From contig WFMF01000179.1 in the NCBI GenBank assembly GCA_011033025.1, positions 186,001 through 250,000 on the forward strand: 64,000 bases of DNA, in the 5' to 3' direction. The notes below the pieces were generated by a model. It was given only the letters and a program-made list of their open reading frames with translations. It had not been told where the DNA came from and searched no databases. Numbering within the stretch: the stretch's first letter is position 1; each line of letters starts with the position of its first letter. Origin of the DNA: Beroe forskalii. Lineage: Eukaryota > Ctenophora > Nuda > Beroida > Beroidae. The translations under genes and the position numbers were made by a program. Positions 166 to 62,200 of this stretch are shown here, one piece after another.

Positions 166-483
166 CTATAAACGTCGCTGATAAGAACATAGTAACGGGG
201 ACTGATCAAGACATAGATTGTCCTATCACCGGTTTGGCCGGTACAAACGCCACCGTTACCTGGCAAGATCCCGATGGTAGTGCCATCTCTAACGGTGCCA
301 ACTACTCGATGGACCCGGGGTCGATTAGTGGTGGAAGCCAAACAGCCACCCTCACCATCAAGGAACCAGTTCTCTTGGAGATGACGAGCCCCAAGACCTA
401 CACCTGTACTGTCAAGTCCACCCATTACACCAGCAGTTCGAGTTCTGCCTCAGCTAATATAACGCTGACTCCCCTAGTTTTAG
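166..483 (+). CDS. Ig exon P1 (PQ array)
   Basis: Phase 1-1 exon after a pyrimidine-rich acceptor ending CCACCAG and before donor GTAGGT. It encodes one Ig-like domain with B-strand DQDIDCPITGL, C-strand TVTWQDPDGS and F-strand KTYTCTV, closing with the type-P tail ITLTPLVL-G. The first 165 bases of the window are the end of the preceding intron. P domains alternate with Q domains through 10447. Confidence 0.85.
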
Positions 484-3400
484 GTAGGTGTTTTGTTTAG
501 ATTCCGTGGCAATTTTTTGTTTCAATTCATCTTATTGCTTTGAAAAGGTTGGTATGTATCATTCTTTGACGTCTATCGAGATAACAACTCGAAATATAAT
601 AGATGGTATTATCATTTGAAAACACAGTAAGATACATCCCTTTTCAAGGTGTGACCGCTGTTGAGAAGGAGGTTGAGAACAACACGCTAGCCACCATCTC
701 CTGTGTGATTACCGGCATCAGCCAGCAGCTGGACAAGGTGACCTGGAAGTTGGGTGGAAGTGACGTGCTGGGCATCTCCAACACCTACTACACCGTGGAT
801 AACGGCACTTACAACGCCACCGACAACTCCCAGACGACAGTGCTGACAGTGGCGGCAGCCGACAACCTGGCCGACACCACTTACCAGTGTGTGTTCTCCG
901 CCAACGAGTGGAAGGAGTACGATAGGATCACTCAATGCGTCCTCCAAGTCTTCTGTAAGTACCCAATGCGTCCTCCAAGTCTTCTGTAAGTACTCAATGC
1001 GTCCTCAAAGTCTTCTGTAAGTACTCAATACGTCCTCCAATTCTTCTGTAAGTACTTAATGCGTCCTCAAAGTCTTCTGTTAGTACTCGATGCGTCCTCC
1101 AAGTCTTCTGTTAGTATTCAATGCGTCCTCAAAGTCTTCTGTAAGTACCCAATACGTCCTCCAAGTCTTCTGTAAGAACTCAATGCGTACGCCAAGTCTT
1201 CTGTAGGTACTCAATGCGTCCTCCAAGTCTTCTGTAAGAACTCAATGCGTACGCCAAGTCTTCTGTAGGTACTCAATGCGTCCTCCAAGTCTTCTGTAAG
1301 TACTCGATGCGTCCTCAAAGTCTTCTGTAAGTACCCAATGCGTCCTCCAAGTCTTCTGTAAGTAATCAATGCGTCCTCCAAGTCCTCTGTAAGTACCCAA
1401 TGCGTCCTCCAAGTCTTCTGTAAGTACTCAATTCTTCTGTATAGTAAGTATCCAAGTCTTGCATAAGTCTTCTGTAAATACTCAAGCCGTCCTGCAAGTC
1501 TTTTGTAAATACTGAAGTATTAGTGATCCAATCATTCAGTAAAGAACATTTTTTTTGAAGTAATTGAGTCATTTGAAAGTTCTCAAGTCTTCTTTTGCTA
1601 CGCTTGGATAGGTATTTGATAGAGTTTTTTTTTCAAGATGCTGATTGCTGAATCAAATCCCAAAATCGGTTTTCCGTTATGCCGTTATTCTAGCAGGTGT
1701 ACCATGCATTCACTTTTTTTTAGATTTGTGAGCCACTATTACCTTAAAGTAAACATATTCGTCTGAACCATTATGTCTTGAAGAAATCCGTAGAACTATT
1801 CAGTGGTCAAATTTTAAATCTAACTTATTTCAGTAAATCAATAGAAATGCCACATTGTGACCACTGACCAGTTGTTAGGATTTCTTTTTGATGAAACGGC
1901 ATAATATAAGCTGGAATAGAAGATAAGTGGACTCAGTTCTGCGGCAGGGCAATTCAAGTTGGTGTCATGGATTTCTGAGGGGGGGGGGGGCAAATTCTCA
2001 CAAACTTTACTACCCTTTGAAATAAGTTAAACAATTTTGATCGAAATGAAAAGCACATTCTTATACACTTGTAAATACAACGAAAAAAGAAAAAAATGAA
2101 CGAGCGGAAATTGAAAATTCAGATTGTTCAGATCTTTTGTGACACACAAAATTCAGAGGGAAAATAGCAAACTATAATTGTTGCGATTTGATGCATAACG
2201 AAATGAGGGCTAACGTTTCCTCCATATATTTGATGATACCAGCAATTTAGTATTCTCAAAGCTCATCGAGGGCTTATCGAAACTTGGGAGTCCTCAGAGT
2301 TCTAACACAAGTGTTCTCACTCCGTGCGCGGAACCAGGACCCTGTCTTTTGTGAGACATAGGTTCATGTCTCTACATAAAAGCACCCCACCGAGAAAGCC
2401 TTTCGGTCAATCAAACCGAGATATAATCCCTAAAAATCTATGACTTTAAATAAAGCAGTACATGTAACAACAATTCATTGAAACCTGCTCATAAACCCTC
2501 TCCAGTGCCTCCAAGCTGCATCTCTGACCCGCTTATACAGATCACTGTAAAACACCGGGTTCAGCAGGCTGTTCACAGGTATAACCACCAGCGCAAATAT
2601 CTCAAACACCAAGGGAGAAGCTTGCCGGCTGGTGATAAATTCAAAGGAAATGATCGTTACAATGTAGGAGATCCAACAAACCAGCTGTGACCCTATCATA
2701 AGAGCTATTTTCAGGATGATTGACTTAGACTGGATGTTTTCATTTCCTTCGTGTTGAGCTAAGGCTTTCCTCGACTTCCTTTGCTGGTGAAGGATTTTGA
2801 TGTATGTGACAAATATGAAACTTAGGATAGCGACGATAAATTTACAGTAGATCATTTTGTAAATGGTGTATGATTCCTTGTACTTGAAGATGTTGTGGAT
2901 GCACAGACCGGTGTTCCCGTAGAAACTTATCTCCTGAATTTCAAAGATTTCTTGATTGGAAGTGACATTTCTCAGTTTTTCCGCTATCTCAAACACGTCA
3001 GTGGTAAGGTCATGTGTACTATTAGTTACCCCTCTGTAGAAACTAAGTAACCGGGACACATTGACTGTATTCTCGGTAAAGAAGGGGTTGTTATCGAGGT
3101 TTTTAAAGAATATCTCGGAGCTAAAGAGCTGTCTTACAGCTGAGAAAGGAAGCAATGGAAGGCAGGAATGGAACCAATTGAGCAGGTTTGCTGCGATGAG
3201 ACTTGTAAGAACCGCCTTTTTCCTGATGATCACACCTATATCAGAACAAACCCTAAACCTGGTGTAACTTACCAAGGCTATGGTAAGGAGAGACCCATGG
3301 GCAGCCGAAGAGAAGACCACCCCGAACCCTGCGCAAACCCAACTAGACCTCCAGGAACTTTCTAGCAAGCAGTATCTCCCTTTTATCCGGATTACTATCC

Positions 3401-6400
3401 CTGCAATCACTATGCCAAGGAGGTAGAGACCCATGAGCAGATCATGGCAAAACAAGTTAATCAGGTAGATCCTCTCAACCTGTTTTATGTTTGATGGGCA
3501 CTTCATTCGGCAGCAGCTATTTATTTGAGCAATGTTCAGCTTAATGATAAGCAGAGCCAAGATTCCAGTGACTCCTGCCACGAGTTTCGATTGTATAAGG
3601 AAGTCAGGGGAGGAAAGGCCTTCTACTTGGCAAGTTCCACACTCGTCTGCACCGTTATTACAGTCCTTGACATGATCACAGGTCTTATCCGGGTCTATCC
3701 AGTCTGTTGTCTCATTGGGACTGCAATAAAACCTTCCCGGACAGCCCTTTTCATCTGCACCTGACTTACAGTCAATGTTCCCATCACACAGCCTGTGAAT
3801 TGGTTGCGCGTAGTCCTGACTTACAGCCTGATTTTCATCGCACCTAAAGTCATACCTGTGTGGATTTCCCTTAGAAATGCTATCGCAGAATGTCACCCAC
3901 CCTTCCTCTTCGAATCTGTCATACTGAGAACAGTTAGACTTGCAATACTGTCGAATAACGTCATCAGAAATGCGGAATTCGGTATATATGTCTGATAGTG
4001 GGAAGCGTCCCAAAGGCACTGGTGAAGCGGATTCCTTGTTTCCTCTTCACCGAGCGACACTCCGTTACAGGCCTCATCCACCCTCCTGCCAATATCTGGA
4101 ACAGAAGGAAGGAGGTAATCATTGATACTCTCTGAATTATCACACAGTTTTTCTCTTGACATACATACTTTGGGGTGGACATCTGAGAAGATGATGTGAT
4201 CTGGACAGTAGCACTCATCGGACCCATCCAAACAGTCCTGAACATTGTCGCAAAGGTGATCAAACACAAGACATCCCGAGCCGTCAAAGCAGTAGAAGAT
4301 ATCCTTGGGATAACCATCCCGGGTCACACATCCGCACTCGTCAGTCAAGCACTGGGATAAACCATCGCACTGCGACTCCAGGTCTAGGTTCCGACACAGC
4401 CATTCATTTTCCTCGTCAAAGCCAGCCGTATCGATCCAGCTGTGTGTGGTTATTGCTGAGTAAAGGAAGTCAAAGTTAAAACTGCAAGTAAAGGACCCAG
4501 CTTCAGGTGTGCCTCTGATAGGTGGTAGACCGAAGTGGTATTTCCACATGATGCTTCGAGCGAAACACGAGCTCCCTTGAAGGTCCCACAAACAATGATC
4601 CGCAACTAGTCTGTCAGCCACTTCGTAATCAAGTGCGAATTCTCTTGACGATACCAAGGCAAGAAGTATGGAAGATGTCACCGCTGCGTTTAGTATTGAT
4701 ATCATGTCTTGAAATTTCTGAAAATTCCGGGGTTAATTTTTAATTTTTAATTGAAACACAGAAAATGTCAAATATTATAATATTAGCTTATTACTTTATT
4801 AGGTTGAATACGTGAAACTGCAATGAAGATATTATGCATTGCAGGGTCAATTAAGTGTCTTCGTACAGTCATTTGACAACTATGAGTTACTCATGAGCTA
4901 TTTTAAAACTTCTAAAATCTAAATGAAAGAAAATGGGATGTTAAGTTGAGATGTGACTGAACCCTTAGAAAAACAAAGCCGTAAATCGAAAAGAAAAACT
5001 GGGCAAAATTGATATTTTGTAAAGCCATTATAAAATGGCAAAAATTGCTGCAGCAGACAAAATGTTGCAAGTTTTAGATTTTTCATTGAATTTTCCATTG
5101 AATTTTCTTCTGTTAACAGAGGGGGCATGTCCCCCAGGAAATACGGGCCTGATTATGCGTCACTCAGTATATAAAAGTATATATAACATGAAACACGGCT
5201 CTGCAACTGTTGGTAATTACTGCTGAAGTTATCACTTTATCAACACTAAACTTTATTAGCTTATATTGATTATCTAATTTGAAAACAGATGTATTTTGAA
5301 AGATCTAAACGTTTGAGGCCCCTTGGAACACACTACGCGGATTAGGTACTTTATAAAAAGCTAAAAAGCTAAAAAAGCTAAAACGCTAAAAAACATACCC
5401 ACTTAATTTCAAGTGACGCACCGTCGAGCATTGCCTTATCGGATATAATTATCACGGTCCTTTGCATGACAATGTCCATGATTCTTCATTCTTATGGCCG
5501 AAAAGGCTATAATGCTTGACGTACTCGACTGTGGTGCATTTAAGTCACTGAGCACGTCCGACCTCCACGTGAATATTCATGTCCAGCACTTCATCTAAGG
5601 AGTTGGGTACTGGCGCAAATTTTTTTGCTGGATCTTTTTAAAAGCACAGCAAATAAAGTTCTTCAGAAAAGTTTCTTTTTCAAGCTCAAAAACTGCTATA
5701 TACAGTAAAAGATTGAAAAATACTCATTACTCAATCAAAGTATATGAATCGAACTACCGAAAAACTTTCTCGTTGTAAGCACACTTTATTACAGCCAGAC
5801 CCTTATTACTAATTCAGGAAGAATCATTTCATAGTTTTATCAATTCATTTTGGTTTGAGTATACCCCATTTTGTTGTAGACCCCCATTTTGTCACACAAC
5901 TTCACAAATCACCCCTCTTTTGCAGCTGTGACGGTAACTGACGAGTACATAGCAACGGGAAGCGACAAAACTATCACTTGTCTGATTGAGGATCTCTCTG
6001 CGTATGGTGACATCGTGTGGCTGGATCCTAACGACGCCGTCATACCCACGGTGGGGGATTTTATTGTAATATCTTTTTATATTTGGTAAGTGGGAGATTT
6101 TGTGTAAGGGTTGAATTGTTTGGGTTTTTACTTGGTTCAGTAACTTTGTGTGTCATTCTGACAGGTATGGGTGACAGCAACTACATTTTGTGTAAGGGTT
6201 GAATTGTTTGGGTATATTTGTTTGGCCCAATAACTTAATGTCTCTCTCCAACAGGTTGGTAACAGCAACTACACAGTCACGGTGGGTTCTGCGAGCTACT
6301 CCAGTGGAGTGCAGACCTCCACCCTCAACATCTCCCAGACAGTCCTGGGGACCTTCACTCCCCCCAGCGTCTACAACTACACCTGCAAGATTACCTCCCG

Positions 6401-9400
6401 AACTGAGCCCCTCTCACCAACCTCCAGCAACATCATCACTCTAACACCTCTCACGCTAGGTTAACTCCTATTTAACAAGTAGAGTCAATATCTAAAGTGC
6501 ATAAGTGTGCTTTTGGAGTCGTTCATGGTACATTTAGGGTGCAATCAGGGATGTTATTAAATGTGCTTGGTATATAGGGTGTACACTGATGTGGATGGGT
6601 GCGTTTAGGGTACATCGGTCGACTGCTCATTTACGTGGGTTGTTTGCAGGGGTTTATTGACCTATTGTTTGCAGGGATTTATTGACCTAGCGTTTGCAGG
6701 GATTTATTGACCTAGCGTTTGCAGGGATTTATTGACCTTTTGTTTGCAGGGGTTTATTGACCTATTGTTTGCAGGGGTTTATTGACCTATTGTTTGCAGG
6801 GATTTATTGACCATTTGTTTGCAGGGGTTTATCGACCTATTATTTGCAGGGATATATTGACCTATTGTTTGCAGGGGTTTATTGACCTATTGTTTGCAGG
6901 GATTTATTGACCTATTGTTTGCAGGGATCGAGCCAATACACACGGAGGTGGAGGTGGGTTCCACTGCCACAGTTTACTGCAACATCTCGGGACTAACGCG
7001 GACTCTGGAGGAAGTGGGGTGGAAGCAGGGAGGGACCGAACTGCACAACTCAATGCCGGGAATCACCATATCCAACGGCACGTACGATAGCAGCACCTTC
7101 TCCCAGCAAACCACGCTGACACTCCAGGGTTCTGAAACCACGTCGGATACCACCTATAAGTGTGTGTTTACCTCCAACGAGTGGGGAATCACGGATAACG
7201 CAACAGATGTCTATGTGAATACCTATTGTAAGTGTGTTGTGTGATTTGTGTCGGGTAAATTGCAGGAGTAAACAAGGATATCATGCATTTATTATGACCA
7301 AATTTTAGAATCTTGGAGAAAGTTTCTGTGGTGACTGCTACTGAAATATTAACTGCTACATTCTCCCGTAGCCGTATCTCCCGACGTCTGACCCCATTTT
7401 CTCACTATACAAACTCCTCACATCATTACGTTTTCAACTCCCTAATTCAACTGTGTTATTTCTGCAGCGATAGAAGTTGAAGACAGATACATAGTGACGG
7501 GCACCGAGCAAACCTTGACCTGTAAGATAGTTGACCTGACCACGAACGTTACCGTTTCCTGGGAAGACCCCGCCGGTAGCAGTATAACAGGCGGCGCGAA
7601 CTACACGCTGGACGCAGGGGCTGTGAGTAGCGGCAACCAGAGTGCAGTGCTGACTGTGAAGCTGCCAGTGCTGGGAAGCATGACCAGTCCTGGGAACTAC
7701 ACGTGCAAAGTGGACTCCGGGGAGTATCCTAGCAACTCCCCTCAGTCTACCGCTAGCTTCCTCGTCACACCCCTCATCCTAGGTAACTGCAACTGAGAAT
7801 TAGTTATTACTTTACAACACTACTCTCTACAATCAAATTTGAGGATGGAATTCTAAGGATGTTTTACACAAAGATATCAAATTCCAGTCAATAACTGTTT
7901 GTTTCATTTTCTGTCCAACCAAAATAAAATTATTACTGCTTATTAGTTATCTTATATCCATTATATGCGTAAAAATGCTGTATTTTTGACAGGTATCCTA
8001 TGAAAGTATGAAAGTAAAGTGCGCGCACTGCAGAAAATGCGCGTGTTCATCAAATTATCAGATATCTAAGCTAAGGCATTCTTTAAATCAATGTTCCCCA
8101 GGAATTCAGCCAGTCAGTACAGAAGTTGAAGTGGGTACCAATGCTACGATAACGTGTATCGTGAGTGGTATCAGCCAAGCTATTGACTCTATGGTTTGGA
8201 CTGACTCAGGAACACCAGTGACTGGCAGTAACTACACTGCCGTCACGGAGAGTTACAATTCAACTGATTACACCCAAACCGTCACACTGACCATTGACGG
8301 AGCGGTGAACACTGTGGATACGACCTACACCTGTGTCCTGAACTCCACCGAGTGGAATGAATTCATGAATGAAACGACCGCTGATGTTAATGTTCTCAGT
8401 GAGTTGTCATTTGTTATCATAGGATACTGCCTGTTGTTATTGGTATTTTCACTAACTTGTTTCCGGTTGTTATTGATTTCATCCGAAAGATGTAACTTGT
8501 TGTTAATAAATGTTGATTCATCAATTGATCAATACGTTGTTCCATTGTAAGACCCAATTCTGAATGGAAATGCAACTATTTCTCGTGCAAACATCTAACT
8601 AGCCATTTTTTCGATGGACTTCAGCTTAAAATAATTACACCTGCCATCATCCTTGCCAACGTGTTCTGCCGTACATAAACATTTTGCTTTTCAGCTGTTA
8701 CGCCGGAGCCTGGAAAGAGCATTCCAACTGCAACAGCACAAACCATCTCCTGCAACATCAGTGACGTATCGAGTACCAATGTCTCGGTGCAGTGGGTGGA
8801 CCCGGGTGGGAGTGTGATTTCCACGTCTGATACCACTAACTACGTCATTGTACCGGGCTCAGCCTCTGGCGGCATTCAAATCACCACTTTAGAGATCAAA
8901 CCTGCAGTATTGAGCACGTACTCCTCGCAGCAAATCTTTACTTGTAGGGTGACGTCGCAGCAGTACCCAACTAACTCTCCTGACATCGACAAAACGATTG
9001 CACTGGACCCGCTTACTTTAGGTTGGTTTGAACTGTGAAGACTAGAATTCTTAACTGTATTCAAGTCACATTTCATTCACATGGAACACATTTCAATTTC
9101 CTTAATACCTACTTACATATGATTGTTTTTGAATATCTTTGCAGACATCACGACGACTGACAAGGAGATAGAAGCTGGAACGGCTACCAACATCTCCTGT
9201 ACGATCAGTGGCATCACCCAGCAGCTGGACGACGTTGATTGGCTCAACTCCACCGGCACCTCCATGCGTGGCGAGTCAGGCTTCGTTATTGATAACGGCA
9301 CGCACGACGGAGCGGGCTACAACCAGACGACGACCCTGAGCATCCCCGGGTCCGCCACGTCCGCGGACGAGGTGTATACCTGCTCCATCACCTCCACCGA

Positions 9401-12400
9401 GTGGGCGCAGACCAACAACCAGACGGACGCGACCGTTAATGTCTTCTGTGAGTCCCAGATTACGTTTCATGGGTTTGATCTTGACGAGTTTTGAAAGCTT
9501 ATTGCATAAGTTTTCCAAAAAACCCTTCATCCGCGGTTGATTTTCACTTCTAATAAAACTCATTTCAGCGGTCCAGCTAGACGATAGGAACATAGTGACA
9601 GCCACTGCTCAGTCCATCACGTGTCATTTGACGGGATTATCAGCAGCTGCCACCGTGTCTTGGTACGATGACGCATCCCTCTCCAGCCCTCTCTCTACCT
9701 CGGGTGCCAACCACTCGATCAGCTCAGTGGCGTACTCCAGTGGCAACCAGTCCTCCATCCTGGTGTTGCAACCTGCTGTTCTGGGGGCTATCAACGACAA
9801 CGCGACCTACTGGTGCAAGGCAACGTCAACCCACTTCCCAACTCACTCTCCTGACGTTGTGAACGATGTGGTGCTAACCACCCTGACTCTGTGTAAGTGT
9901 GGACAGTGCAAGGCTTTTAAGGTAGACTGTGGTTTAGGGAGGCTTATACACGTATCATGGGACCAACTCTCTCCTTTCCTACACAACCACTCTGTTCTTG
10001 CACTTCTGTACACGTTTCATGGAATGCTTAGAAACGTCCTTGTGAAGTTTTAGTTAGACTCCAATCAAGATCTTAACCTAACGTTGTATTTCTCACATCT
10101 TAATCTCCCATGAATCTCTCACCTCGTCTGATGCCTCTCTCTCTCAGCGATCACTACTGTTGTTGTGGAGGAGGAAAGGAGCCAGGCCATGAACCTGACC
10201 TGCACCATAGCGGGCATCTCCCAGCAGCTTGACAACGTCAATTGGTTACGGGACGGCACCAACCTCTCCGACATTTCCAACACCAGCTTTACTGTTGACG
10301 CTGGGACGTACTCCAACAACTCCCAGATCACGGTCCTAACGGTGGATGGGGATGTGAACACTGCTGATCACAACTACACCTGCTCCATTACCGCTGACGA
10401 GTGGGTGGTAACGGATAACGAGACTGTTATCGAGCAGAAAGTCTTCGGTGAGTTTTGCCTTATATCATCATACGGTAATCATCGATTGATCTTTGATTCC
10501 ATGTTGTATTCAATTACTGTTATCGATGAAAATCGAGTTAAATTTTCGCCATGATGGGATATGGCCACAATTATGATGTTATTTTTTATCCCCCCATTGA
10601 GCACTTCACTTCCCCCTTCCCCTCCCCCCATTGAGCACTTCACTTCCCCGGCAGGTATCCTAGTCGATCCCTCCGACTATGAAGGGGACCCAAACACCAC
10701 GGCGACCATTTCCTGTGAGATCTACGGATACGTTTCACTGGCAGTGGATTGGAGATACGAGAACTCGACGAGTTACTTGTCGTACAACACTTCCAAATAC
10801 ACTAGAAACGACACTTTCACTGGCTCCTCGACTATCTCAATACTGGAGATAGCAAATCTCGATGCAGGTTCACATTCTCTTTACTTCTTCGTGTATCGAT
10901 ATGAAATTATTCTATTTCCTAAGTTAGGAATTTAATTTCTGTACTGTTTTGTTTCTATTTAATGATTTAATTTTCAGATGATATCGGCAACTATCGATGT
11001 GAGATTTCCAGGACTGGATTCAATGTGATTTCAAATGACTCTCTGGTCACGGTCAATGGTGAGTCTTTTGAGTTCGAAAATAAATGGGTCTTAAATCATT
11101 TTCAATATTACATAATATGGTGTCATAGTGATATTTTACGAGATGCGAATGTGAGGGATTATTTTTTTAAATTTCGATCCTCATAAAATCTGGTATTGCT
11201 GTCATTCAGATGTTCGGATGTTGACAACACACTGCTGCACATTTTAACAACCTCCTCCCCACACAGCCCTGGCTCTGCCGGACACACTCGTTAAATCGGG
11301 GGTCAGCACGACCCTCCAGTGCAGTTACTATGGAAACGAGACTGTTACGAGCATGTTCGTGGAGCGGCAAGACAGCACGACCCTGCAGTGGAGTGCACCC
11401 ACTACCAGCGACCAGTACATCAACAAGATCAATGCGTGAGTTACCGTCATACTGTGAACTTTACAACACTACTTTATTTTAAACTTTACAACACTACTTT
11501 ATACTACCAAATTTGACGTTTTGGTGATTTATAGTATGAAACATGTCAATTCTTTCTAAGTGGTCTCTAAATACTGTGCGGAACATTGCCAGTCTTCTCT
11601 GGGTTTTAAAAAGTTTTATATTATCATCAATATCTAGACTAAAAGTACACATGTTCCAGCTTAACGCTTTGTTTTTGTTGCGATTGTTGGCTGCATTCCA
11701 ATATATCAATTCCCACTTCTATCTCCATATTATTCCAGGTTACACAACGACACGGACGGGCATTACGCCTCTGTGGAAATGACGTCTGATCTCACCCTCG
11801 GTGGCGCCTGGAGGTGCAATGCTACTTACGGCGGCAATGACTACACTAAAACTGCTACCCTCTATGTCACAGAGGGTAAGTCTTGGGGTGGACGTCAACT
11901 ACTGGGATTTCTTCAAACTCACTAAAGTGTCATCGAGAAAATTTCACTTTAATTCTTTTTCGATTTCGCTGAATCAAAAAAGAAATTAAAGACATATCTT
12001 ATTTAAAATAATGAATATGTGATTCCTATTCAATCACGCCATCCGTTAATCACGAAACTTGTAGGCAACTCATGTAATTAAATAGCGGAATTACCTTTCC
12101 ATTAGATTTTAATCAGGTGCATGGGTTTCGTTATATTAACGGGACGTTTCCCTCAGAGAAATCCTCGACCGTGAGTTCGGAAGGCTTCTTCAAGGTAGCG
12201 AGCGGTTCAGTGAGCAGTGTGATCAGTGTTGAGGCTAACGCACCGCTCTCACCAACGCTCAGCTTGCAGGACACCAGCGGGGCAATCAGCGACGGCCAAT
12301 GTAAGTTGGGAATGGGACACCACTAAAGATAAAATTTCTAAGTTGCCTTGATTACTTGAATAGCGACAGTTGACTGTCTAATTGATTCTTGGACAATGCT

Positions 12401-15400
12401 GATAAAATCTATCGATGATCTTATGATTTTTTGATGATTCGCTTAAGATAAGTATGCCGTATTAATATTATTGAGCAAGAACCTTCCATTTTGTGATGTA
12501 TTATATTCGTTCAAATTAACACCTCTTACCCCTTATTGTCCCCGTTACTAATAAAAAACTGGGTTCCACTACTCATTTACACATTCCATTTCAGCCGGGT
12601 TCCACTACTCGTTGACATATTCCATTTCAGCCGGGTTCCACTACTCGTTGACATATTCCATTTCAGCTGGGTTCCACTACTCATTTACACATTCCATTTC
12701 AGCCGGGTTCCACTACTCGTTGACATATTCCATTTCAGCCGGGTTCCACTACTCGTTGACATATTCCATTTCAGCTGGGTTCCACTACTCATTGACACAT
12801 TCCATTTCAGCCGGGTTCCACTACTCGTTGACACATTCCATTTCAGCCGGGTTCCACTACTCATTGACACATTCCATTTCAGCCGGGTTCCACTACTCAT
12901 TGACACATTCCATTTCAGCTGGGTTCCACTACTCATTGACACATTCCATTTCAGCCGGGTTCCATTACTCATTGACACATTCCATTTCAGCCGGGTTCCA
13001 CTACTCATTTACACATTCCATTTCAGCTGGGTTCCACTACTCGTTGACATATTCCATTTCAGCCGGGTTCCACTACTCGTTGACACATTCCATTTCAGCT
13101 GGGTTCCACTACTCATTGACACATTCCATTTCAGCCGGGTTCCACTACTCATTGACACATTCCATTTCAGCTGGGTTCCACTACTCATTGACACATTCCA
13201 TTTCAGCCGGGTTCCATTACTCATTGACACATTCCATTTCAGCCGGGTTCCACTACTCATTTACACATTCCATTTCAGCCGGGTTCTACTACTCATTTAC
13301 ACATTCCATTTCAGCTGGGTTCCACTACTCATTGACACATTCCATTTCAGCCGGGTTCCACTACTCATTGACACATTCCATTTCAGCCGGGTTCCATTGC
13401 ATTGACACATTCCATTTCAGGTTCCACTACTCATTGACATTCCATTTCAGCCGGGTTCCACTACTCATTGACACATTCCATTTCAGCCGGGGTCCACTAC
13501 TCATTGACACATTCCATTTCAGCTGGGTTCCACTACTCATTGACACATTCCATTTCAGCCGGGTTCCACTACTCATTGACACACATTTACACATTCCATT
13601 TCAGCCGGGTTCCACTACTCATTGACACATTCCATTTCAGCTGGGTTCCACTACTCATTGACACATTCCATTTCAGCCGGGTTCCACTACTCATTGACAC
13701 ATTCCATTTCAGCTGGGTTCCACTACTCATTGACACATTCCATTTCAGCCGGGTTCCATTACTCATTGACACATTCCATTTCAGCCGGGTTCCACTACTC
13801 ATTGACACATTCCATTTCAGCTGGGTTCCACTACTCATTGACACATTCCATTTCAGCCAGGTTCACTACTCACCATTCCATTCCATTTCAGCTGGGTTCC
13901 ACTACTCATTGACACATTCCATTTCAGCCGGGTTCCCACTACTCGGTGACATTCCATTTCAGCCGGGTTCCACTACCCATTGACACATTCCATTTCAGCC
14001 GGGTTCCACTACTCATTGACACATTCCATTTCAGCCGGGTTCCACTACTCATTGACACATTCCATTTCAGCCGGGTTCCACTACTCATTGACACATTCCA
14101 TTTCAGCCGGGTTCCACTACTCATTGACACATTCCATTTCAGCCGGGTTCCACTACTCATTGACACATTCCATTTCAGCCGGGTTCCACTACTCGGTGAC
14201 ACATTCCATTTCAGCTGGGTTCCACTACTCATTGACACATTCCATTTCAGCTGGGTTCCACTACTCATTTACACATTCCATTTCAGCTGGGTTCCACTAC
14301 TCGGTGACACATTCCATTTCAGCTGGGTTCCACTACTCATTTACACATTCCATTTCAGCCGGGTTCCATTACTCATTGACACATTCCATTTCAGCTGGGT
14401 TCCACTACTCATTGACACATTCCATTTCAGCCGGGTTCCACTACTCGGTGACACATTCCATTTCAGCTGGGTTCCACTACTCATTGACACATTCCATTTC
14501 AGCCGGGTTCCACTACTCATTGACACATTCCATTTCAGCCGGGTTCCACTACTCGTTGACACATTCCATTTCAGCCGGGTTCCACTACTCATTGACACAT
14601 TCCATTTCAGCCGGGTTCCACTTGACATTCCATTTCAGCCGGGTTCCACTACTCGTTGACACATTCCATTTCAGCCGGGTTCCATTACTCGGTGACACAC
14701 TCCATTTCAGCTGGGTTCCACTACTCATTGACACATTCCATTTCAGCCGGGTTCCACTACTCATTGACACATTCCATTTCAGCCGGGTTCCACTACTCAT
14801 TGACACATTCCATTTCAGCTGGGTTCCACTACTCATTGACACATTCCATTTCAGCTGGGTTCCACTACTCATTGACACATTCCATTTCAGCCTGGTTCCA
14901 CTACTCATTGACACATTCCATTTCAGCCGGGTTCCACTACTCGGTGACACATTCCATTTCAGCCGGGTTCCACTACTCATTGACACATTCCATTTCAGCT
15001 GGGTTCCACTACTCATTGACACATTCCATTTCAGCCGGGTTCCACTACTCATTGACACCATTTCAGCCGGGTTCCACTACTCGTTGACACATTCCATTTC
15101 AGCCGGGTTCCACTACTCATTGACACATTCCATTTCAGCCGGGTTCCACTACCCATTGACACATTCCATTTCAGCCGGGTTCCACTACTCGTTGACACAT
15201 TCCATTTCAGCCGGGTTCCATTACTCGGTGACACACTCCATTTCAGCTGGGTTCCACTACTCATTGACACATTCCATTTCAGCCGGGTTCCACTACTCAT
15301 TGACACATTCCATTTCAGCCGGGTTCCACTACTCATTGACACATTCCATTTCAGCTGGGTTCCACTACTCATTGACACATTCCATTTCAGTTCCACTACT

Positions 15401-18400
15401 CATTGACACATTCCATTTCAGCCTGGTTCCACTACTCATTGACACATTCCATTTCAGCCGGGTTCCACTACTCGGTGACACATTCCATTTCAGCCGGGTT
15501 CCACTACTCATTGACACATTCCATTTCAGCTGGGTTCCACTACTCATTGACACATTCCATTTCAGCCGGGTTCCACTACTCATTGACATTCCATTTCAGC
15601 TGGGTTCTCATTGACATTCCATTTCAGCCGGGTTCCACTACTCATTGACACATTCCATTTCAGCCGGGTTCCACTACTCATTGACACATTCCATTTCAGC
15701 TGGGTTCCACTACTCATTGACACATTCCATTTCAGCCGGGTTCCACTACTCATTGACACATTCCATTTCAGCCGGGTTCCACTACTCATTGACACATTCC
15801 ATTTCAGCTGGGTTCCACTACCCATTGACACATTCCATTTCAGCCGGGATCCACTACCCATTGACACATTCCATTTCAGCCGGGTTCCACTACTCATTGA
15901 CACATTCCATTTCAGCCGGGTTCCATTACTCATTGACACATTCCATTTCAGCCGGGTTCCACTACTCATTGACACATTCCATTTCAGCCGGGTTCCACTA
16001 CTCATTGACACATTCCATTTCAGCCGGGTTCCACTACTCATTGACACATTCCATTTCAGCCGGGTTCCACTACTCATTGACACATTCCATTTCAGCCGGG
16101 TTCCATTACTCGGTGACACACTCCATTTCAGCTGGGTTCCACTACTCGTTGACACATTCCATTTCAGCCGGGTTCCACTACTCATTGACACATTCCATTT
16201 CAGCTGGGTTCCACTACTCATTGACACATTCCATTTCAGCCGGGTTCCACTACTCATTGGGTTCCACTACTCATTGACACATTCCATTTCAGCCACATTC
16301 CACTATCAGTGACACATTCCATTTCAGCCGGGTTCCACTACTCATTGACACATTCCATTTCAGCCGGGTTCCACTACTCATTGACACATTCCATTTCAGC
16401 CGGGTTCCACTACTCATTGACACATTCCATTTCAGCCGGGTTCCACTACTCGGTGACACATTCCATTTCAGCCGGGTTCCACGACTCATTGACACATTCC
16501 ATTTCAGCCGGGTTCCACTACTCGTTGACGGATTACAACTCCACGACGGGGATTGCTAACATCAGCTTCATGTACAACGGAACAGTGGACCAGTTTGACC
16601 TTATCTTCAAAGTGGTGTACACTGTGGGGTTGAACTCTGTGGTCTTCAACTACTCTATCAACATCGACGTGTACAGTACGTACAAGGCATCATATAACCC
16701 TGTTGGTAGTCCTGAGTGTTTTGTTTTCATCACTCGGCTCCCCAGTGATGAAATTAAAAAAAATCAGATGGCAAACAGGGACAAAATATCATGTTGGCTT
16801 TGCAGATTATGTATGTTTTATAGCGTTAGATTTATTAGCGAGATTATAGAATTAAATTATGATGTAGTTATGCAATTATAGGCATAACCTATCTGGACTC
16901 TTATTACCCCCCCAGGTATCTCACTGCTGACGCCTGCCTCTGCCATCTACTTCCCCATCACTACACCCATCACACTGACTTGTAGCTTGACGGGTCTGGA
17001 TAAGGGTATCAGCGAGATATTCGAGTACGAGTGGCCCTCCAACTGTACCTCCGCCTGCGCTGCCTCGAATACTTCCTCCTTCGTTGTGCAGGTAATTAGG
17101 TCGCACCATTCATTTTAAGATTTTACTCTGTTTGGCTTCCTGATTATGGAACGTCGCTTCCTGTGATCCCAAGCCTCTACGATCTTCCTAGCCCAAGTTA
17201 CAGGATTCTGAGCATGCGCTAATAAGCGTGGTCGCCTATTCGCCACATGGTAAAAGTTTCTACCTCCCCCTTCAAAGTTATGTAAAACACCGAAATTTAC
17301 TATTTGAAGAGTTTGAAGTCTTAGTCATTGACTGCGAGCTGCCATCTCACTTTTTGCCCCCATCCGGTTTCTTTTTGCCCCTCACTATGCGCACTTTGCA
17401 CCCTACGTCTAAGAATTACCCCCGCTGATTTTCAAACCAGAGTGCTCCTTTCCCTCAACGCTCAACCACTGCACTTAAATCACCTTACCCAATACCTTAA
17501 TACCACACTTCTTATTTTCAAAAACAATAACACTACTGTATAATATACTGACAAAACATTAAATTTACTACATTTTACCGAAAAAATAAGAGCGAAAATA
17601 CGGATAAGAATTGTCCATCCTCAGGGCTTTCCCTCCTATAGTCCTTAGAAGTGCCACTGGGTGCAGTGTTGCCGGAAATTGATGATTCCATGCCCTCCCT
17701 CCTCTCTGACTTCCAATCCCGAGACCACAAAGCCATCTGGACAGCGGAAAGCCATGTTCAAACTGCCGCGTTTGTTGCCACTAGAATCCATCCATTGAGA
17801 GCTCTTATGGCATTGCATGTCCACGTCTATTATCCCGTAGCCGCCTTGTTCACGGCCTTGTAAGACATTGAATCCGTAGTGGTCGTTGCTCCTGCATGTC
17901 CTTTTTGAGTTCCTGGCCCCGTTTTCATTCCGGGTAAAAGGTATCTCGTCACCATAGCCACAGTCCATGTACAACTCGATCAGCCCCCGTTGGCTCTGTT
18001 CACGCCATTGTAGACCTTCAACTACGTGGTTTGCTGGGCAGAGTTTCTTGATGGTGTGGCCCCTGGTATTGCCATTTGACCACGATGTCCAAGTTGATGT
18101 CCTATCTTTTACTGGGGGTGATATTGGAATTTTCGATGGGATTAATCGGTTACAACGGGCCCTGAAGTTGATTATTCCGTAGCCACCTTGCTCACGCACC
18201 TCCAAACCAGTCACTACTGCGTTGCCATTGCACGTGCTTGGATAGTTCCAGTTCCCATTGTAGTTCCCGTTGGATATCTTCTGAGCCCCGGAGTCGTAGC
18301 AGTACATCAGGGTGTTGATGATGCCTCGTCTGCTCTGCTCCCGTCCCCTGATCCCATAGAAGGCGTTCAGCTTGCCCGTGTCCTCGCAGTCTATCTTCTC

Positions 18401-39400: not shown

Positions 39401-42400
39401 AATTTTTATAATTATTAATTCTACTATTGAATTTCAGATGACAGTATACCAGGCGAAATATCATGGACGATTGATTCTTTGAGTGATACCATAACTGACA
39501 TTACAACTGTCATTAAATTGCTATGTCAAGTGAACTTCACGATTCCCAGTCAGGATGGTTTCTTCCAAACCTATTCTTCTAATTCTAAGACTTTTTATAC
39601 CAGAGAATTCACATTGTCACCCATGATTGTCCACACCTTAATTGAATCAAATGATGAAACCATCCTCTGTTCTGCTAAAGGTGATGTGGTATCAGTGACA
39701 TGGAATGTCGAGGGTAGAACAGATATTTATGAGAATGGTGTTAGTGTGGCCATGGTTAAGGATGACTCTAATGAAAAAATTTCCAGACTTTCAATCACCA
39801 ACGCTATGAAAGATGAAACCTTTACTTGCAATGTAACCTATAGTCTCAGTAGTGGAGAATCAAACACCACCCAATTATATGTACTAGGTAATTATAATTT
39901 TTTAACAATTTATTACTCCTTATTTAATTTTTATTCTGCAAAATCAAATATGTCATGTACTTTTGCACTTTATATTGATCAAGTACTTTTGCACTTGATA
40001 TTGATCAAACTTGGAATGATTCTGAATTGTTAAACAATCATATCCATGATGTCTTTCTTTACTCAGATGCAGCAATAGACCCAAGTTTCATCGGAACATA
40101 TGTTCTCACAGCCTCCAACATAACCCTTACATGCAATGTAACTGCATCAACGTTAACCCCAACATATAAGTGGAAATTGAATAGCACTTACATTAGCAAT
40201 GAGATCAGTTCGACTCTCACCTTGCTCAATGCACAGCCATCAGATACAGGAGATTATCTTTGTGAGGTTACTTGGCCGACTGTGGGAACCCTAGATACAG
40301 ATGTGTATGTGTTGAATGTGAGGGAGATCGATGTTCCTACAACTACATTCTTCATGGGAGCAGATACTACTACTGTGACATTGTCCTGTACAGCATATGG
40401 CGATGCTGTTTCAGAAGTTGTTTGGAGCTCACAATCTGGAACAAATCTCACAGCAATGAATGCAACTTTGTTGCCCTACTTAAATTATGGTTCCCAGAGT
40501 TTGTTGGAATATACATACTCTATACCAGAGGACAATGTTACTTGCTCTTTCAAATACACCTATGATAATGTTTCATTGTCTGGAGACACAATAACACTCA
40601 AATATATAGCAGGTACTACCACTCTAGTTTCTTAATAGTTTTTTTTTGCTTTCAAGATTTATTCATCTAGCCAATAAGCATTTATCTCCTTTCAAGGATT
40701 ATAAATTCCGTTGAACCAAAGTCAATGTTTTCAGATCAAGTTAATCTGACTACTGCCACATCGAATTGGTATGGTGATGTTGGCTCGAGGGAGGAATTCA
40801 TCTGTTCATATCAATATTTTGATGGCATCAATATCACTGTTGAACTCATTTTTGGTACCTCAACAACTCTTTTCAGTGTCTATCCTAATGCTTCCATAGG
40901 TTAGGCATTTTATTCATCAACTTGTTACATAATAGTATTATTGACATCAAATCCTGATTGGCATTTGATTTTATGAAACCATTGTTTCCTATTCAATTAC
41001 AAAAATTTAAAGCGTTGGTATGATAAGGCTAAAAAACTGCAAAAATAATTAATTACTGTTACAGCTACCAGTGATGGAGAATATGTTTGGAATGTAAGCT
41101 CTCTAACACATGACTATACCAGTAATGACCCTCTGAAGTGCAAGGTTACTTATAGTGTTCCAAGTCAAGATAATTTCTCTCAAGTTTATATTGAGCAGCA
41201 CAATACCAAGTATTTTGTTCGTGAGTTGATTGCAAGCCCAGCAATCCAATTATCTTTGGAAAGATCTAGTAGTGAGAGCTTTATTTGCACTGCTAAAGGA
41301 GATGTTGAATCCTTGATCTGGACTGTGGAAGGTAGAACAGACGTGAATGAGAATGGTGTAAATGTGAGCTTGTTAACAAATACATCGACTGAGGTTGTGT
41401 CCCAACTATCAATCACTAATACAGTACAAGATGAAGTGTTCACATGCAATGTTACCTATTCCATGGGTGGATCAGAAGTGCAAAATGTTACATTCATATC
41501 CATAAGTAAGTATTATTCTGATGTGACCAATGACAACCAATAACCATAATACTTTGAAAAATTGACATAGCTCTATTAGTCATAAACCCCCTCTACAATT
41601 AAGATATTGGCAGACAACCATTTATTAACAGCTTTTAATCAAGCTTACTTTCATTATCAAATCGTCGACTGAGTGCAAAAAAAGCTGAGTGCAAAACAAT
41701 CCTATCTCCAACTTTTGTCTACGGCCTCTCTGGAGGCCCCTCCACCCTTTGGAATCGATTCCATACTCAAATATGTCATTTTAGGCCTAAAAATTGAAGT
41801 TAAAAAATATCGTTAATCCATTGCCAAATTTTGGTGAGTGAAAGACAATCCTATGGTACCTTAGGATCCCTGTTCACCATAATCTGCAAAATAACTTAGT
41901 TTATTCTGGAGTTAGGATACCAGAAATGATGAATTAGTATCCTATCTCCATTGACATGAATGAAATAATTGATAACGCTATTGTAATACAGTGTTACAAG
42001 TATCCTATCTCCGATAATTCTTTATACTTTTATATGAGTATATGGCACTCTTGGTACATATACCTTTCTCGTTCAATGAGATATACCTGCAGGCTGCATG
42101 TAGTGTGTAACAACACTATTATCTACATGATACCTTGGCAAATTACAAGCCAATGCTTGGTTTGTATTTGTAATTCACCTTGGCTGTAGTCATACATACA
42201 AAGTCGGTGACCTAAAAAAAGAATTAACTGATATATAATAGCGGTGCATAGCTCTGTTAGCCACATATGGCACATATATAAGCGATCGAGATATGACAGA
42301 AAGGAGGGGGAGATAGCTCAATTGATAGAGCACCTAATCGGCAATCAGGAGGTTGTGGGTTCAAGCCACGCTGGCCGCTCGCCTTGCACATTTTTCAGAT

Positions 42401-45400: not shown

Positions 45401-48400
45401 TGTCAGTGGTATCTCTCTCAGTGAGCACTGACAATGTGCTGGTCTTCTCAGGCACACACAGTTCCACTATTGTCTGCACTGCCACAGGGGCTCCACCTAA
45501 CACTCTCCAGTGGGTTAACAGCAATGGAACAATCATTAACACCACAGCATCAGATGCTAACTCAGCTATTGTCCAGAAAGGAAGCTTTGATGGAATGAGT
45601 CAGCGCATCAATCTCACCATACAGAATGGACAAGAAGATGAAATGTACACTTGCAAGGTTGCTTGGGGCATTGATGAGTTTGAAAAGAATGCCAGTTTCA
45701 TCATAGTCGGTAAGGATTAAGAATTGACTATGCCACTAATTGATAGTACTTACATATTAGAATATTTATTAGTAACTAACTCAATACAACAGTAATTATT
45801 GTGCTTTTTGGTCCTTTCAAAGTGCTCCTATAAATGCTTGACTAACATTATTCCATATTGCAGATCATCCTATTCTGACTGCAACTGGTGGAACCTGGAA
45901 TGTTTATGATGGTACCTCAGCAACTGTTACATGCTCCTACTTCATCACAAACACAATTGTTCCTGTAATATCATGGTAATTTACTGATTATCCATGATCT
46001 GCCATTCTGATCATAATTGAAGATTTTTCATTCACGAATTTATTTGAAAAGGAGTCTCTTCCTGTGGTTCTTATATAAAATCAAACATGAGTGCTTTTGA
46101 AACATTTTATCACAATTTCTACAATTCTACACCTGAATATACTGAATAATTCTGAACAGGTATTTTGATGGTATCTCTGTGAATGCTACAAGAAATAATT
46201 CTACTCTTGGTGAATCCTACTATGAGATTACAAGTGCAAGTTCCTCTGATGCTGGTGAATACAACTGCTCTGTGTCCTACAACAATCTGATCAGCTCTGA
46301 CGACACTGCCACCCTGTCAGTGGTATCTCTCTCAGTGAGCACTGACAATGTGCTGGTCTTCTCAGGCACAGACAGTTCCACTATTGTCTGCACTGCCACA
46401 GGGGCTCCACCTAACACACTCCAGTGGGTAAACAGCAACGGAACAATCATTAACACCACAGCATCAGATGCTAACTCAGCTTTTGTCCAGAAAGGAAGCT
46501 TTGATGGAATGAGTCAGCACAACAATCTTACCATACAAGATGGACGAGAAGATGAAATGTACACCTGCAAGGTTGCCTGGGGCATGGATGAATTTGAAAA
46601 TGATACCAGCATCATCATAGTTGGTAAGGATTACAGAAACTCTTCAGACCAATTATTACAGCATTTATAATCTAATCAGCTTTTATTTTCTTTGGGTCGT
46701 ATGCAAGTATACCAATGACCCCCTGCTGACCCTCTGTTGACCCCTGCTGACCCCCTACTGAACTCCTGCTGACCCCCTACTGAACCCCTGCTGACCCCCT
46801 GGTGAACCCCTACTGACCTTCTGCTGACCCCTTACTGACCCCGCTGGTGAACCCCAACTGAACCCCTGGTGAGCCCCTACTGACCACCTTTTGATCATTT
46901 TTAAACTTTTATCGTGATTGATTTTGAACATCTAAAAGCACTTTGCCTTATCATGACGCTTCACATGTCAATGAACTACTACTAAACAGGGGATGGATCT
47001 ACCAGAAATCCAAAACAGAGTACCAGCACGGGACTTCCCGCTGGGAGGTCACTGTTGCAGTGTTGCAGGGCTACTGTGGATTTCAATGACCAGTCGACCG
47101 ATGCACCAACTCAACACGCCAAAATACCATAAATACACCCCTTACCCATGTTAGGGAAAGTGAACTCATAAGTGCTTTTAGATGTTCAAAATCACTCATA
47201 ATAAGAGTTGAAACAATGATCAGAAAGTAGTCAGTAGAGGTTCACCAGGGGGTCAATAGGGGTTCACCAGGGGGTCAGTAGGGGGTCGGCAGGGGGGACA
47301 GTAGGGGTTTGTTCACCAGGGAGTCAGCAGGGCCTCACCAGAGGGTCAGCAGGGGTTCAGTAGGGGTCAGCAGGGGAGTCAGTAGGAGGTCAGTAAGGGG
47401 TCATTGGTATACTTTCATACGACCATAGAAGGTAATGACAGGCATATTATCCATTTATCAAAATTTCGTCTGGGCACCCTCACATATTACATCACCCCTT
47501 TTTGGTCATTTTGACCCCCCTCCCGTCTGTCAGCATTGGTTATCATTGGCTGACCCCTCCCCCTGCTGACGTCAGCATTAACCCACCCCCCTCATAATAA
47601 TAAAACAAATAAAGGTCACTTCGGATCGAAACAATAGCAATGAAATATCAATCAGGTAAGAGTGGTATGTCCAATCTTGTTAGATTCGTCTGAGATAAAC
47701 ACAAAATATGGTTCTACTCCTTTCAGATAAACCACATTTAGTCATCAAATGGCCGGTTGTATGACTAGTAAATTTTCGCATATAGTTAGATAGGTATCAT
47801 ATTGCGGAAATACAATCGGTAGTTCAAAACAAAATATAATGGACAAAAAACGTCAGGAAATTTCAAAATTTTTGCTGACGTCAGCATAGTTCAAACCCCT
47901 TCCATCCCCTGTCATCATCTGTCAGCATATAGAAAATTAGAAACCGCCTCCCCCCGTTGGGTGAGACGTAATATGTGACCGCTCCCTTTCCATATGACGC
48001 TGAAATTATTTCTTGTGATGAATCTTCGATTTTCTGTTCCTTGAAATACCATCTTTAGATCTTTAATGTGGATTTTAAGAGTATTATCAATGTTGAACCC
48101 TTCTAAAACTTTCTTGTCATAACAGATCATCCTATTCTAACTGCAACTGGTGGAACCTGGAATGTTTATGATGGTACCTCAGCAACTGTTACGTGCTCCT
48201 ACTTCATCACAAACACAATTATTCCAACAGTTTCATGGTGAGCAAAAATCCTCTTTGATATATTTATTTATTCGTAATCACCAATGAAATTAACAAATAA
48301 CATTTGTATGGAATATTTTTTATGAAGGTTATTGATTTATGGCAGTTCAATTGAATGAAATAGGATTTTCATTACCAGACAATGTTGTCAATGATAACTA

Positions 48401-59260: not shown

Positions 59261-62200
59261 TCGACCATATATTTCGGGAATACACCTTAAAAGCACTATC
59301 TCGGATTGATTTTGCAAATACACTTTTACTGAATTGACCAAAAATACACCTTTGCTTCCTGAAATTCGCCCATGATTTTGAAAATACACCTAATAAGCCC
59401 TATCTCGGATTGATTTTGCAAATACACTTTTACTGAATTGACCAAAAATACACCTTTGTTTCCTGAAATTCGCCCATGATTTTGAAAATACACCTAATAA
59501 GCCCTATCTCGGATTGATTTTGTAAAGACACTTTTACTGAATTCACCTAAAATACACCTTTAGTTCCGGAAATACACCCATGATTTTGAAAATACACCTA
59601 ATAAGCCCTATCTCGGATTGATTTTGTAAATACACCTTTACTGAATTCACCTAAAATACACCTTTGTTTCCTGAAATTCGCCCATGATTTTGAAAATACA
59701 CCTAATAAGCCCTATCTCGGATTGATTTTGTAAAGACACTTTTACTGAATTCACCTAAAATACACCTTTAGTTCCTGAAATACACCCATCATTCTGAAAA
59801 TACACCTAATAAGCACTATCTCGGATTGCATTTTTGAGGCGGTCTCCAAAAAAAAAAAAAAAAAAAAGGTCGCCACATTTTGGTAACATATTGCCCTCCT
59901 TTTTCGTTGATTTGCCCTCCTTTTTGGGCGAAAGACTGCCCTCCGAACGGATTTTCAAGGGTCGGAAGCTATGGTGCGGGGTGTGACGGACACACAAAAA
60001 GCACGAAATGAAAAATATGAAGATGCCTGCCAATGGCCATGAAAAGTGAAATGTATAATGTCATTTTTTCAGTTCACTGATGACTCGAACATGCATGATA
60101 TGAATACATGATAATATTAATTCTACCAGGTAATGTCATAAATAAATCATAACAAACCAAATGTCAACAGGTCCTTCAATGGCGATACTGTACTTGCTAC
60201 AAGAAACAACTCTACTCTTGGTGAATCCTACTATGAGATTTCAAGTGCCAGTGCCTCTGATGCTGGTGACTACAACTGCTCTGTGTCTTACAACAACCTG
60301 ATCAGCTCTGAGGACACTGCCACCCTGTCAGTGGTATCTCTCTCAGTGAGCACTGACAATGTGCTGGTCTTCTCAGGCACAGACAGTTCCACTATTGTCT
60401 GCACTGCCACAGGGGCTCCACCTAACACTCTCCAGTGGGTTAACAGCAATGGAACAATCATTAACACCACAGCATCAGATGCTAACTCAGCTATTGTCCA
60501 GAAAGGAAGCTTTGATGGAATGAGTCAGCACAACAATCTTACCATACAAGATGGACAAGAAGATGAAATGTACACCTGCAAGGTTGCTTGGGGTGCAGAT
60601 GACTTCGACAGTGATACTAGCATTGCTATAATTGGTAAGGAAGCTTGTTAATACCAAATAGGTGCCGATTTTGAATTGAAATATAGATATTAAAATGCTG
60701 GAATGTTTCCTATACTAAATAAAAGTTCATTTTGTACCCAGTTACATCAAATTAATAAAATAAAAGATTGAATAGATATTAGATAAGACAGAAAAATCAT
60801 AATTTTTGACATAACTACTCTATTTTCACCAATTTTCCACCATGATAATATGATAAGTGAGTTTTTATCATTGCTGTAGTGTAAATTTAATAATTATGTT
60901 TTATCTGTGAATGATATGCATTTTGTTATATATTGCAGACCATCCTGATTTGATTGTATCTGGTGGAAGTTTGAATGTCTATGAGGGCAATTCAGCTACT
61001 TTGACATGCTCCTACTTCATCACAAGTACAATCGTTCCTACAGTCTCGTGGTAAGCAATGTAGTATTTGGTCTGTTAGGCTTGATTAGTTATTGAATAGA
61101 AAGCCTAGGATTTTTCAGTGAGATTCCTAATTGTATAAAACTGTATTTGGAAGAATTTTGGGCTCTTTTGTTCATTTCTATAATATTTATTAGGACCCAT
61201 GGTGGGGTATGCATTAGGGATTTGAAATAAATGAATAATCAAAACCATTGCTACAAAATCTCCTCAGGTCTTTCAATGGTAATTCTGCATTTGGTACAAG
61301 AAATAACTCTACCCTTGGCGAATCCTACTATGAGATTTCTAGTGCCAGTGCCTCTGATGCTGGCAACTACAACTGCTCTGTGTCCTACAACAATCTGATC
61401 AGCTCCGACGACTCTGCAACATTGGCCGTGGTATCTCTCTCAGTGAGCAATACCAGTGTTTCTGTTTTCTTTGAAACTGCCAGTTCCACTATTGTCTGCA
61501 CTGCCACAGGGGCTCCACCCGACACTTTCCAGTGGGTTAACAGCAATGGAACAATAATTAGCACCACAGCATCAGATGCTAACTCAGCTATTGTACAAGG
61601 TGGAAGCTTTGATGGAGTGAGCCAGGATATCAGTCTTACCATACAGGATGGACAACAAGATGAGAATTATACTTGTGAGGCTGCCTGGGGTGCAGTTGAT
61701 TCTGAAGAAGATATAAGTGTCGTAATTGTAGGTAAGGACTAAGGATAATGAATTTGGAGGGGACTTGCGCTGCCTCAAATTTGCAAAATAATCTTATATT
61801 TTGCACCTCTGCCAAATTTCTGCTTCTATAGTTGGAAAGCACCTGCTAGGTTTAAATATTGCATGATTGTTCTAATAATCCTTAGAACTTGTTCATCATC
61901 AATCAATGTTTTTTATGTAAATCTTCTTCCTTTTTCTTCTATAAACTGGATCATGACCATTTCAATTAAAAACGATACTTTTCCAGGTGTATTTTGCAGT
62001 GCTGGACAGTACACAACTGCCAATGGCTGTAAGAACTGTTCAATTGGTACATACTCAGACACTGACAGTGCTGTTACATGTTCATTATGCCCTACTGGGT
62101 ACACGACCCGTTTTGAAAGCAGCGAGAGTATTTTAGACTGCTACAGTAAGTTTCAAGATATCACAATTCCCAAATCGTTCTTTTTCATTGCTCTTATTAT

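Follow-up and report, generated by a model that had tools for sequence, protein, structure and literature searches.

The window analysed here, 64,000 bp of contig C224 (C224:186001-250000) in an assembly of 216 Mb and 1134 contigs, opens with a gene for immunoglobulin (Ig) domains in which tandem repeats lie across splice junctions (Table 1; positions without a contig name are those of the window). Pfam matched Ig domains at E7 and E10, the two Ig-exon stretches of the gene that were scanned, and by our reading two types of Ig exon appear to alternate, type A comprising E1, E3+E4, E6, E8 and E10 and type B comprising E2, E5, E7, E9 and E11. The junctions of the hand model fall inside all four arrays, at donor 954/955 and at acceptors 6254/6255, 6924/6925 and 16507/16508. 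Tandem arrays were called by Tandem Repeats Finder (TRF), which split the 36-bp array into pieces; TRF and the hand exon model together confirm the original prediction that four arrays sit on splice junctions and carry exon sequence together with splice signal. The sizes given at that time hold for the 31-bp unit (about 16 copies) and the 36-bp unit (about 110 copies), the supposed 89-bp unit is 88 bp long, and the 12 copies of the 25-bp unit become 11.6 by TRF. A fifth repeat, said to duplicate an acceptor tract, is indeed a two-copy pyrimidine tract but does not include the junction.

Table 1. Features modelled in the Ig-domain gene, in window coordinates (a slash in a sequence, here and in the text, marks the junction)
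Feature	Position	Strand	Description
Ig-domain gene	166..17091	+	18 exons modelled by hand (E1-E18); extent is that of the modelled part, and both gene ends may lie further out
31-bp x16.2 donor array	930..1432	+	unit is 25 nt of the E2 end plus a GTAAGT-type donor; extends into the intron
Intron, 4,971 bp	955..5925	+	starts within the 31-bp donor array; contains a minus-strand receptor gene
Intron splitting one Ig exon (E3/E4)	6051..6254	+	contains the 88-bp pair; absent from paralogous type-A exons
88-bp x2.0 repeat	6097..6273	+	each copy is the intron end, AG and the first E4 exon nucleotides
25-bp x11.6 acceptor array, TTGTTTGCAG/GGATTTATTGACCTA	6640..6928	+	final copy is the E5 acceptor; about 4 exon nt in the unit
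Two-copy pyrimidine-tract repeat before E12, 34-bp spacing	10589..10649	+	stops short of acceptor 10654/10655
36-bp acceptor array, 110 TTTCAG copies	12561..16529	+	about 22 nt of the E17 start, branch-point-like site, pyrimidine tract, AG
Exon E17	16508..16675	+	first nucleotides are the final 36-bp array copy

The exon parts of the repeat units read as genuine coding sequence, because the unit of the donor array ends as the sister domain does at E9 (GTCTTCT/gtaagt and GTCTTCT/gtgagt, respectively) and because a unit at another locus (L112 on C1, below) includes the beginning of an exon that encodes a PDZ domain. The branch-point-like site of the 36-bp unit is one that we take to be such from the YTNAY consensus. 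Junctions are spanned on both sides by unrelated units, in one donor array and three acceptor arrays. Copies within the arrays diverge from one another (TRF match 81-92%), and 97 of the 110 units of the 36-bp array are exactly 36 bp long, with 19 types among them. With up to 3 mismatches allowed, the 31-bp and 25-bp units were each found in the genome only at their own array, and positions 6040-6300, which hold the 88-bp pair, matched only themselves in a genome search that skips very common words. Four of the six non-exonic arrays in the gene straddle a junction, against 0.94 expected from random placement of single units outside exons (P=0.004), and in the whole window 4/15 arrays do so against 1.1 expected (P=0.017); both P values are post hoc, as the window was selected because of these arrays.

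Most copies, if spliced, would ruin the message. In the 31-bp array 10 of the 16 donors are exactly TCT/GTAAGT, and a single donor, the first, stays in frame and meets no stop; among the 12 acceptors of the 25-bp array, the last is the only one both in frame and open. The 36-bp array has 111 candidate acceptors, counted in the array and at its end and including one CAG other than TTTCAG, with 30 in frame and 81 out of frame. Six of these are in frame and open, namely the acceptor of E17 itself and those of the five preceding copies, each copy adding 12 amino acids. Since the frame is lost at most copies, use of the exon-proximal site is likelier and useful redundancy less so; and since many of the sites are identical, strength alone cannot decide between them and position presumably matters. 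We infer that the copy beside the exon is used, that is, the last acceptor and the first donor.

The intron that holds the 88-bp pair was probably gained, because it is missing from all paralogous matches: 11 of the 11 type-A matches crossing the E3/E4 site run unbroken (E1, E6, E8 and E10 of the gene, four matches on C522 and those on C353, C647 and C348). Two splice choices keep the frame open and finish in the same phase as the hand model: GTGGGG at 6051 joined to 6255, and GTAAGT at 6086 joined to 6266. A copy of an introner was rejected as the source of the intron in view of the self-match of positions 6040-6300 described above. Introns are reportedly gained by tandem duplication, in the model of Rogers and in later cases. 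As in gains of that type, the E3/E4 intron is missing from paralogous exons and holds a junction-spanning duplication; unlike them, a single AGGT exon segment copied to both intron ends was not found at E3/E4, where the acceptor side only is clearly duplicated.

Recurrence at other genes is clear. In a paralogue on C353, an array of a different unit (20 bp x4.8) runs across the donor of a B-type Ig exon. The genome was scanned for three TTTCAG or three GTAAGT words spaced 15-45 bp apart, and among the matches listed, which cover C1 (2.53 Mb) and part of C2, we grouped 22 TTTCAG loci and 15 GTAAGT loci. Flanks were read for 18 of the 22 TTTCAG loci, 12 of them chosen partly for an acceptor-like look and 6 with flanks of 141 bp; the four left unread (C1:200, C2:688414, C2:781833 and C2:930734) were counted as misses. 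At the GTAAGT loci, exon-side flanks were read for all 15 (16 flanks).

A coding stretch starts at the last TTTCAG in 7/22 listed loci (L106, L108, L109, L112, L113, L116 and L117), where codon scores range from 11.8 to 25.0 and shuffle p values from 0.003 to 0.027; the other 11 read loci score 0-7.6, and one of them, L123, has a p of 0.05. L112 is a PDZ exon (Pfam E 1.5e-7) whose first 16 nucleotides are shared exactly by the repeat, and L113 is PAP2-like (PAP2_3, E 2.6e-4, below the curated cut-off) and shares 10. Exact sharing of the exon start reaches 23 nucleotides at both L108 and L109 and 27 at L116. L106 and L117 appear to be weaker cases, with few shared exon nucleotides (4 and 5), and L106 has an alternative possible AG 16 nucleotides further on. 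L108 and L109, nearly identical and in opposite directions on the same contig, are regarded as one event. The other eight of the ten C1/C2 exon peptides matched no Pfam family, and PDB searches with three C1/C2 exon peptides gave no match.

Donor sorting is less clean than acceptor sorting. Three of the 15 listed loci are candidates, with coding-looking sequence ahead of the first GTAAGT that is repeated ahead of a later one: L093 (score 17.3, p 0.066), L095 (10.7, p 0.004) and L101 (17.5, p 0.002). L093 may be a terminal exon whose stop codon falls within the first unit, and L095 a 33-bp coding repeat. By eye, L096, L098 and L105 are possible donor cases. Three loci with low p and scores of 3.1-8.9 were not counted: L097 (p 0.004) and L096 (p 0.032), at which the exon end is not repeated, and L092 (p 0.046), where a better exon apparently ends about 200 bp earlier.

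Scaled up from these two contigs, and hence roughly, 7 acceptors in 3.46 Mb would correspond to about 440 genome-wide (Poisson 176-901) and 3 donors in 2.91 Mb to about 220 (46-652), which suggests that junction arrays are common in this genome and number in the hundreds. The view that this is a repeated behaviour and not one repeat family is thus supported: three of the four units were found at their own array only, as far as the searches were sensitive, and further junction arrays lie in the C353 paralogue and in genes on C1 and C2.

The original prediction knew of no named mechanism, but there are precedents in lancelets and in human CBS (the papers that follow are cited from excerpts). PMC3087553 describes mirages, minisatellite-like tandem copies of intron/exon boundaries, in amphioxus Adh3 and the globins BflGb6 and BflGb9; PMC3902484 adds PGBD5 to the mirage genes and cites TnC. 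Both state that lancelet mirages do not interfere with regular splicing. The lancelet authors link mirages to intron gain and predict that mirage-born introns hold mirage-derived repeats (PMC3087553), a prediction that the E3/E4 intron would fit, the duplication being clear on its acceptor side. The arrays described here resemble amphioxus mirages in having boundary copies at donors and acceptors, gene-specific unit lengths and many copies of AG or GT. They differ in that the host is a ctenophore, that four lie in one gene and that copies number up to about 110, against 6 and 3 in the BflGb6 haplotypes (PMC3087553). Length change among haplotypes and somatic cells is, in these excerpts, a lancelet feature, whereas the ctenophore arrays are known from one assembly.

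In human CBS, a 31-bp variable number tandem repeat, c.1444_1467+7(16_21), covers 24 coding and 7 intron positions by its Human Genome Variation Society name and has 16-21 copies, and c.844_845ins68 is a 68-bp duplication of the intron 7/exon 8 junction whose distal copy is favoured in splicing (PMC2630376). The ctenophore donor array likewise has a 31-bp unit in about 16 copies at an exon end; CBS is a single human gene with population data, whereas the ctenophore arrays occur in other genes of one assembly. Human segmental-duplication genes contain variable repeats of about 30 bp, which at exon-intron boundaries may form novel introns; unlike the present arrays, these lie in human paralogues, half of them in coding sequence, according to the excerpt of PMC2812944.

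We consider it likely, with a probability of roughly 70%, that the arrays are mirages, i.e. local tandem duplications that began by chance across junctions, expanded like any minisatellite and were tolerated through exon-proximal splicing. A short duplication would copy an exon edge together with its splice signal, and slippage, unequal exchange or conversion would then add further copies, which in the examples found lie towards the intron. If the machinery splices at the copy beside the exon body, the mRNA would be unchanged and the other copies would become intron. The array, being nearly neutral on this account, would lengthen the intron, and a junction repeat may occasionally help a new intron to arise, as may have happened at E3/E4. 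The mutational steps, the site used and the near-neutrality are the conditional parts of this account; the anatomy, the frames, the recurrence and the intron missing in paralogues were observed directly. Three points weigh against it. A 36-bp array exists on C168 away from any predicted junction, acceptors would not be expected to exceed word frequency if random duplications were simply tolerated, and the five extra acceptors of the 36-bp array that are in frame and open mean that strict use of a single site is not required there.

The excess of acceptors bears on a mutational bias, already proposed in the original prediction, by which an acceptor-linked feature (either the pyrimidine tract with its AG or the locus being transcribed and spliced) would seed tandem duplications more often at these sites; we regard this as possible, though the odds are clearly against it. 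As a null rate we used the fraction of words in sampled genome DNA that are predicted splice sites, 10 of 173 for TTTCAG (5.8%) and 16 of 112 for GTAAGT (14%). This fraction depends on a simple exon finder (codon and splice-site scoring, trained partly on the gene's own hand-modelled exons) that recovers 14/18 hand-modelled exons exactly, partly its own training set, and misses exons outside the window, such as one on C647. The 7/22 acceptor loci exceed 5.8% (P 0.0002) and also 10% (P 0.004), as do 6/21 when L108 and L109 are counted once (P 0.001 and 0.014), an excess of about 3-5 fold over the word-frequency null. The strict donor count of 3/15 shows no excess over 14% (P 0.37), and a loose count of 6/15, with three weaker loci added, does (P 0.013). 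Also in favour of a bias are the four of six arrays that straddle junctions in the gene and, over one stretch, 22 TTTCAG loci against 6 of the control word TCATTG. Against it, 1 of 41 arrays in sampled DNA outside the window straddles a predicted junction, with about 0.96 expected, although the exon finder is weak there and misses exons.

Raw triple-word counts likewise do not single out the splice words: TTTCAG (5917) and GTAAGT (7141) stand beside the controls GACTTT (1147), TCATTG (2430), TGAATG (4933) and GTTACT (5870), and the corresponding single-word counts in sampled DNA are 172, 112, 83, 138, 137 and 81. A five-fold excess of TTTCAG triples over reversed words was dropped, since a second control pair and the single-word counts show that large arrays dominate. 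These figures suggest an excess at acceptors and do not establish a bias for junctions in general. Acceptors exceed this one null, with no clear excess for donors or the other sampled DNA.

A further explanation, for which the C168 array speaks, is that mobile minisatellites land in introns and that a built-in AG or GT is then adopted as a splice site. The 36-bp unit is not confined to the gene and has about 29 further copies on the reverse strand of C168 (C168:383895-384965), in an array without flanking homology to the gene and without a predicted exon within 5 kb, embedded in a sequence that is itself repeated along this part of the contig. Four of the 13 unit types on C168 are shared with the array of the gene and cover 16 of the 29 copies. 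Allelism between the C168 array and the gene was rejected, the flanks having no homology. A 16-bp array type (CTGCTATCCTATCACY) is found a short way 3' of exons on both C224 (near 185,415) and C348 (L067 3012-3557), starting 8 and 28 bp from the predicted exon edge, and E17, whose stretch gave no match in a Pfam scan, has no match elsewhere that would date its start as old. Against mobility, the other three units were found nowhere else, the unit includes the conserved coding start or end itself where the exon is conserved (PDZ; E2/E9), and no exon is predicted within 5 kb of the C168 copy. Because the 36-bp unit codes for the E17 start, transfer would have run from the gene to C168. We consider arrival by mobile arrays improbable.

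Less probable again is that selection has favoured redundant splice sites or an exon of variable length, as was also raised at the outset. A length-variable exon would be possible at the 36-bp array, with its six open acceptors in steps of 12 residues and with 97/110 units that keep exactly 36 bp. Redundant sites fare poorly, as the frame is kept without a stop by one site in each of the 31-bp and 25-bp arrays and 81/111 acceptors of the 36-bp array are out of frame; moreover, since arrays also sit at exons of PDZ and PAP2-like type, no single gene function explains them. An assembly artefact or chance is very unlikely: long arrays are difficult to assemble at their true copy number and some duplicated loci are same-contig pairs, but the copies differ in sequence and in unit type and the pattern recurs on C224, C353, C1 and C2. 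Same-contig pairs of equal or near-equal score, several in opposite orientation, were seen on C198, C695, C573, C643, C401 and C936 and at C1:882198 and C1:908194, and could be either recent duplications or an assembly effect.

If the arrays are mirages, their kind is already known. What is new, as far as the literature was searched, is their presence in a ctenophore, where one gene carries four, one of these has about 110 copies, and there are signs of such arrays across the genome. Among the matches listed, in open-licence PubMed Central only, the ctenophore, Beroe and Mnemiopsis literature on minisatellites or tandem repeats held nothing on junction arrays. Lancelet mirages were, in the excerpts cited, reported gene by gene; here the lineage is one distant from chordates, a single gene would have four mirages, and the small survey of two contigs points to hundreds. 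A bolder version, to which we give only tentative credence, is that several hundred junctions are amplified, acceptors beyond random expectation, so that an acceptor-linked process seeds the duplications, and that the resulting introns, each with anywhere from 3 to 110 equivalent splice sites, continually feed intron growth and gain. Many near-identical sites in a row could reveal how splice sites are chosen, by exon definition, branch-point scanning or site strength, and junction arrays would let intron lengthening and duplication-born intron gain be followed at many loci.

The genome is taken as that of a ctenophore on account of a berovin/mnemiopsin-like cluster, evidence that comes from the assembly and not from C224 itself. 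A tandem photoprotein gene cluster at C254:149756-154035, found with a jellyfish photoprotein query, has a protein that matches berovin (E 2.4e-133 over 207 residues) and mnemiopsin 1 (E 1.1e-126), compared with E about 1e-20 for obelin. The assembly also gave 104 homeobox matches, and 14 of 20 inspected yielded a readable homeodomain; these we take to be divergent types, except for LIM- and POU-like ones.

Within the window, the receptor gene nested in the 4,971-bp intron that begins in the donor array lies at 2475-4732 on the minus strand, and combines a 7tm_1 match with a cysteine-rich part that by eye resembles the low-density lipoprotein receptor. The DNA of exon E5 occurs once in the genome, as represented by this one assembly. 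A long series of similar tandem Ig exons of two kinds follows at 23-64 kb, with a 104-bp x5.3 tandem repeat between Ig exons at 59279-59834 (TRF match 93%). Two 11-bp arrays at 46716-46889 and 47230-47401, apparent reverse complements about 340 bp apart, could pair as a hairpin, and a tRNA match at 42307-42379 scores barely over the Rfam gathering score.

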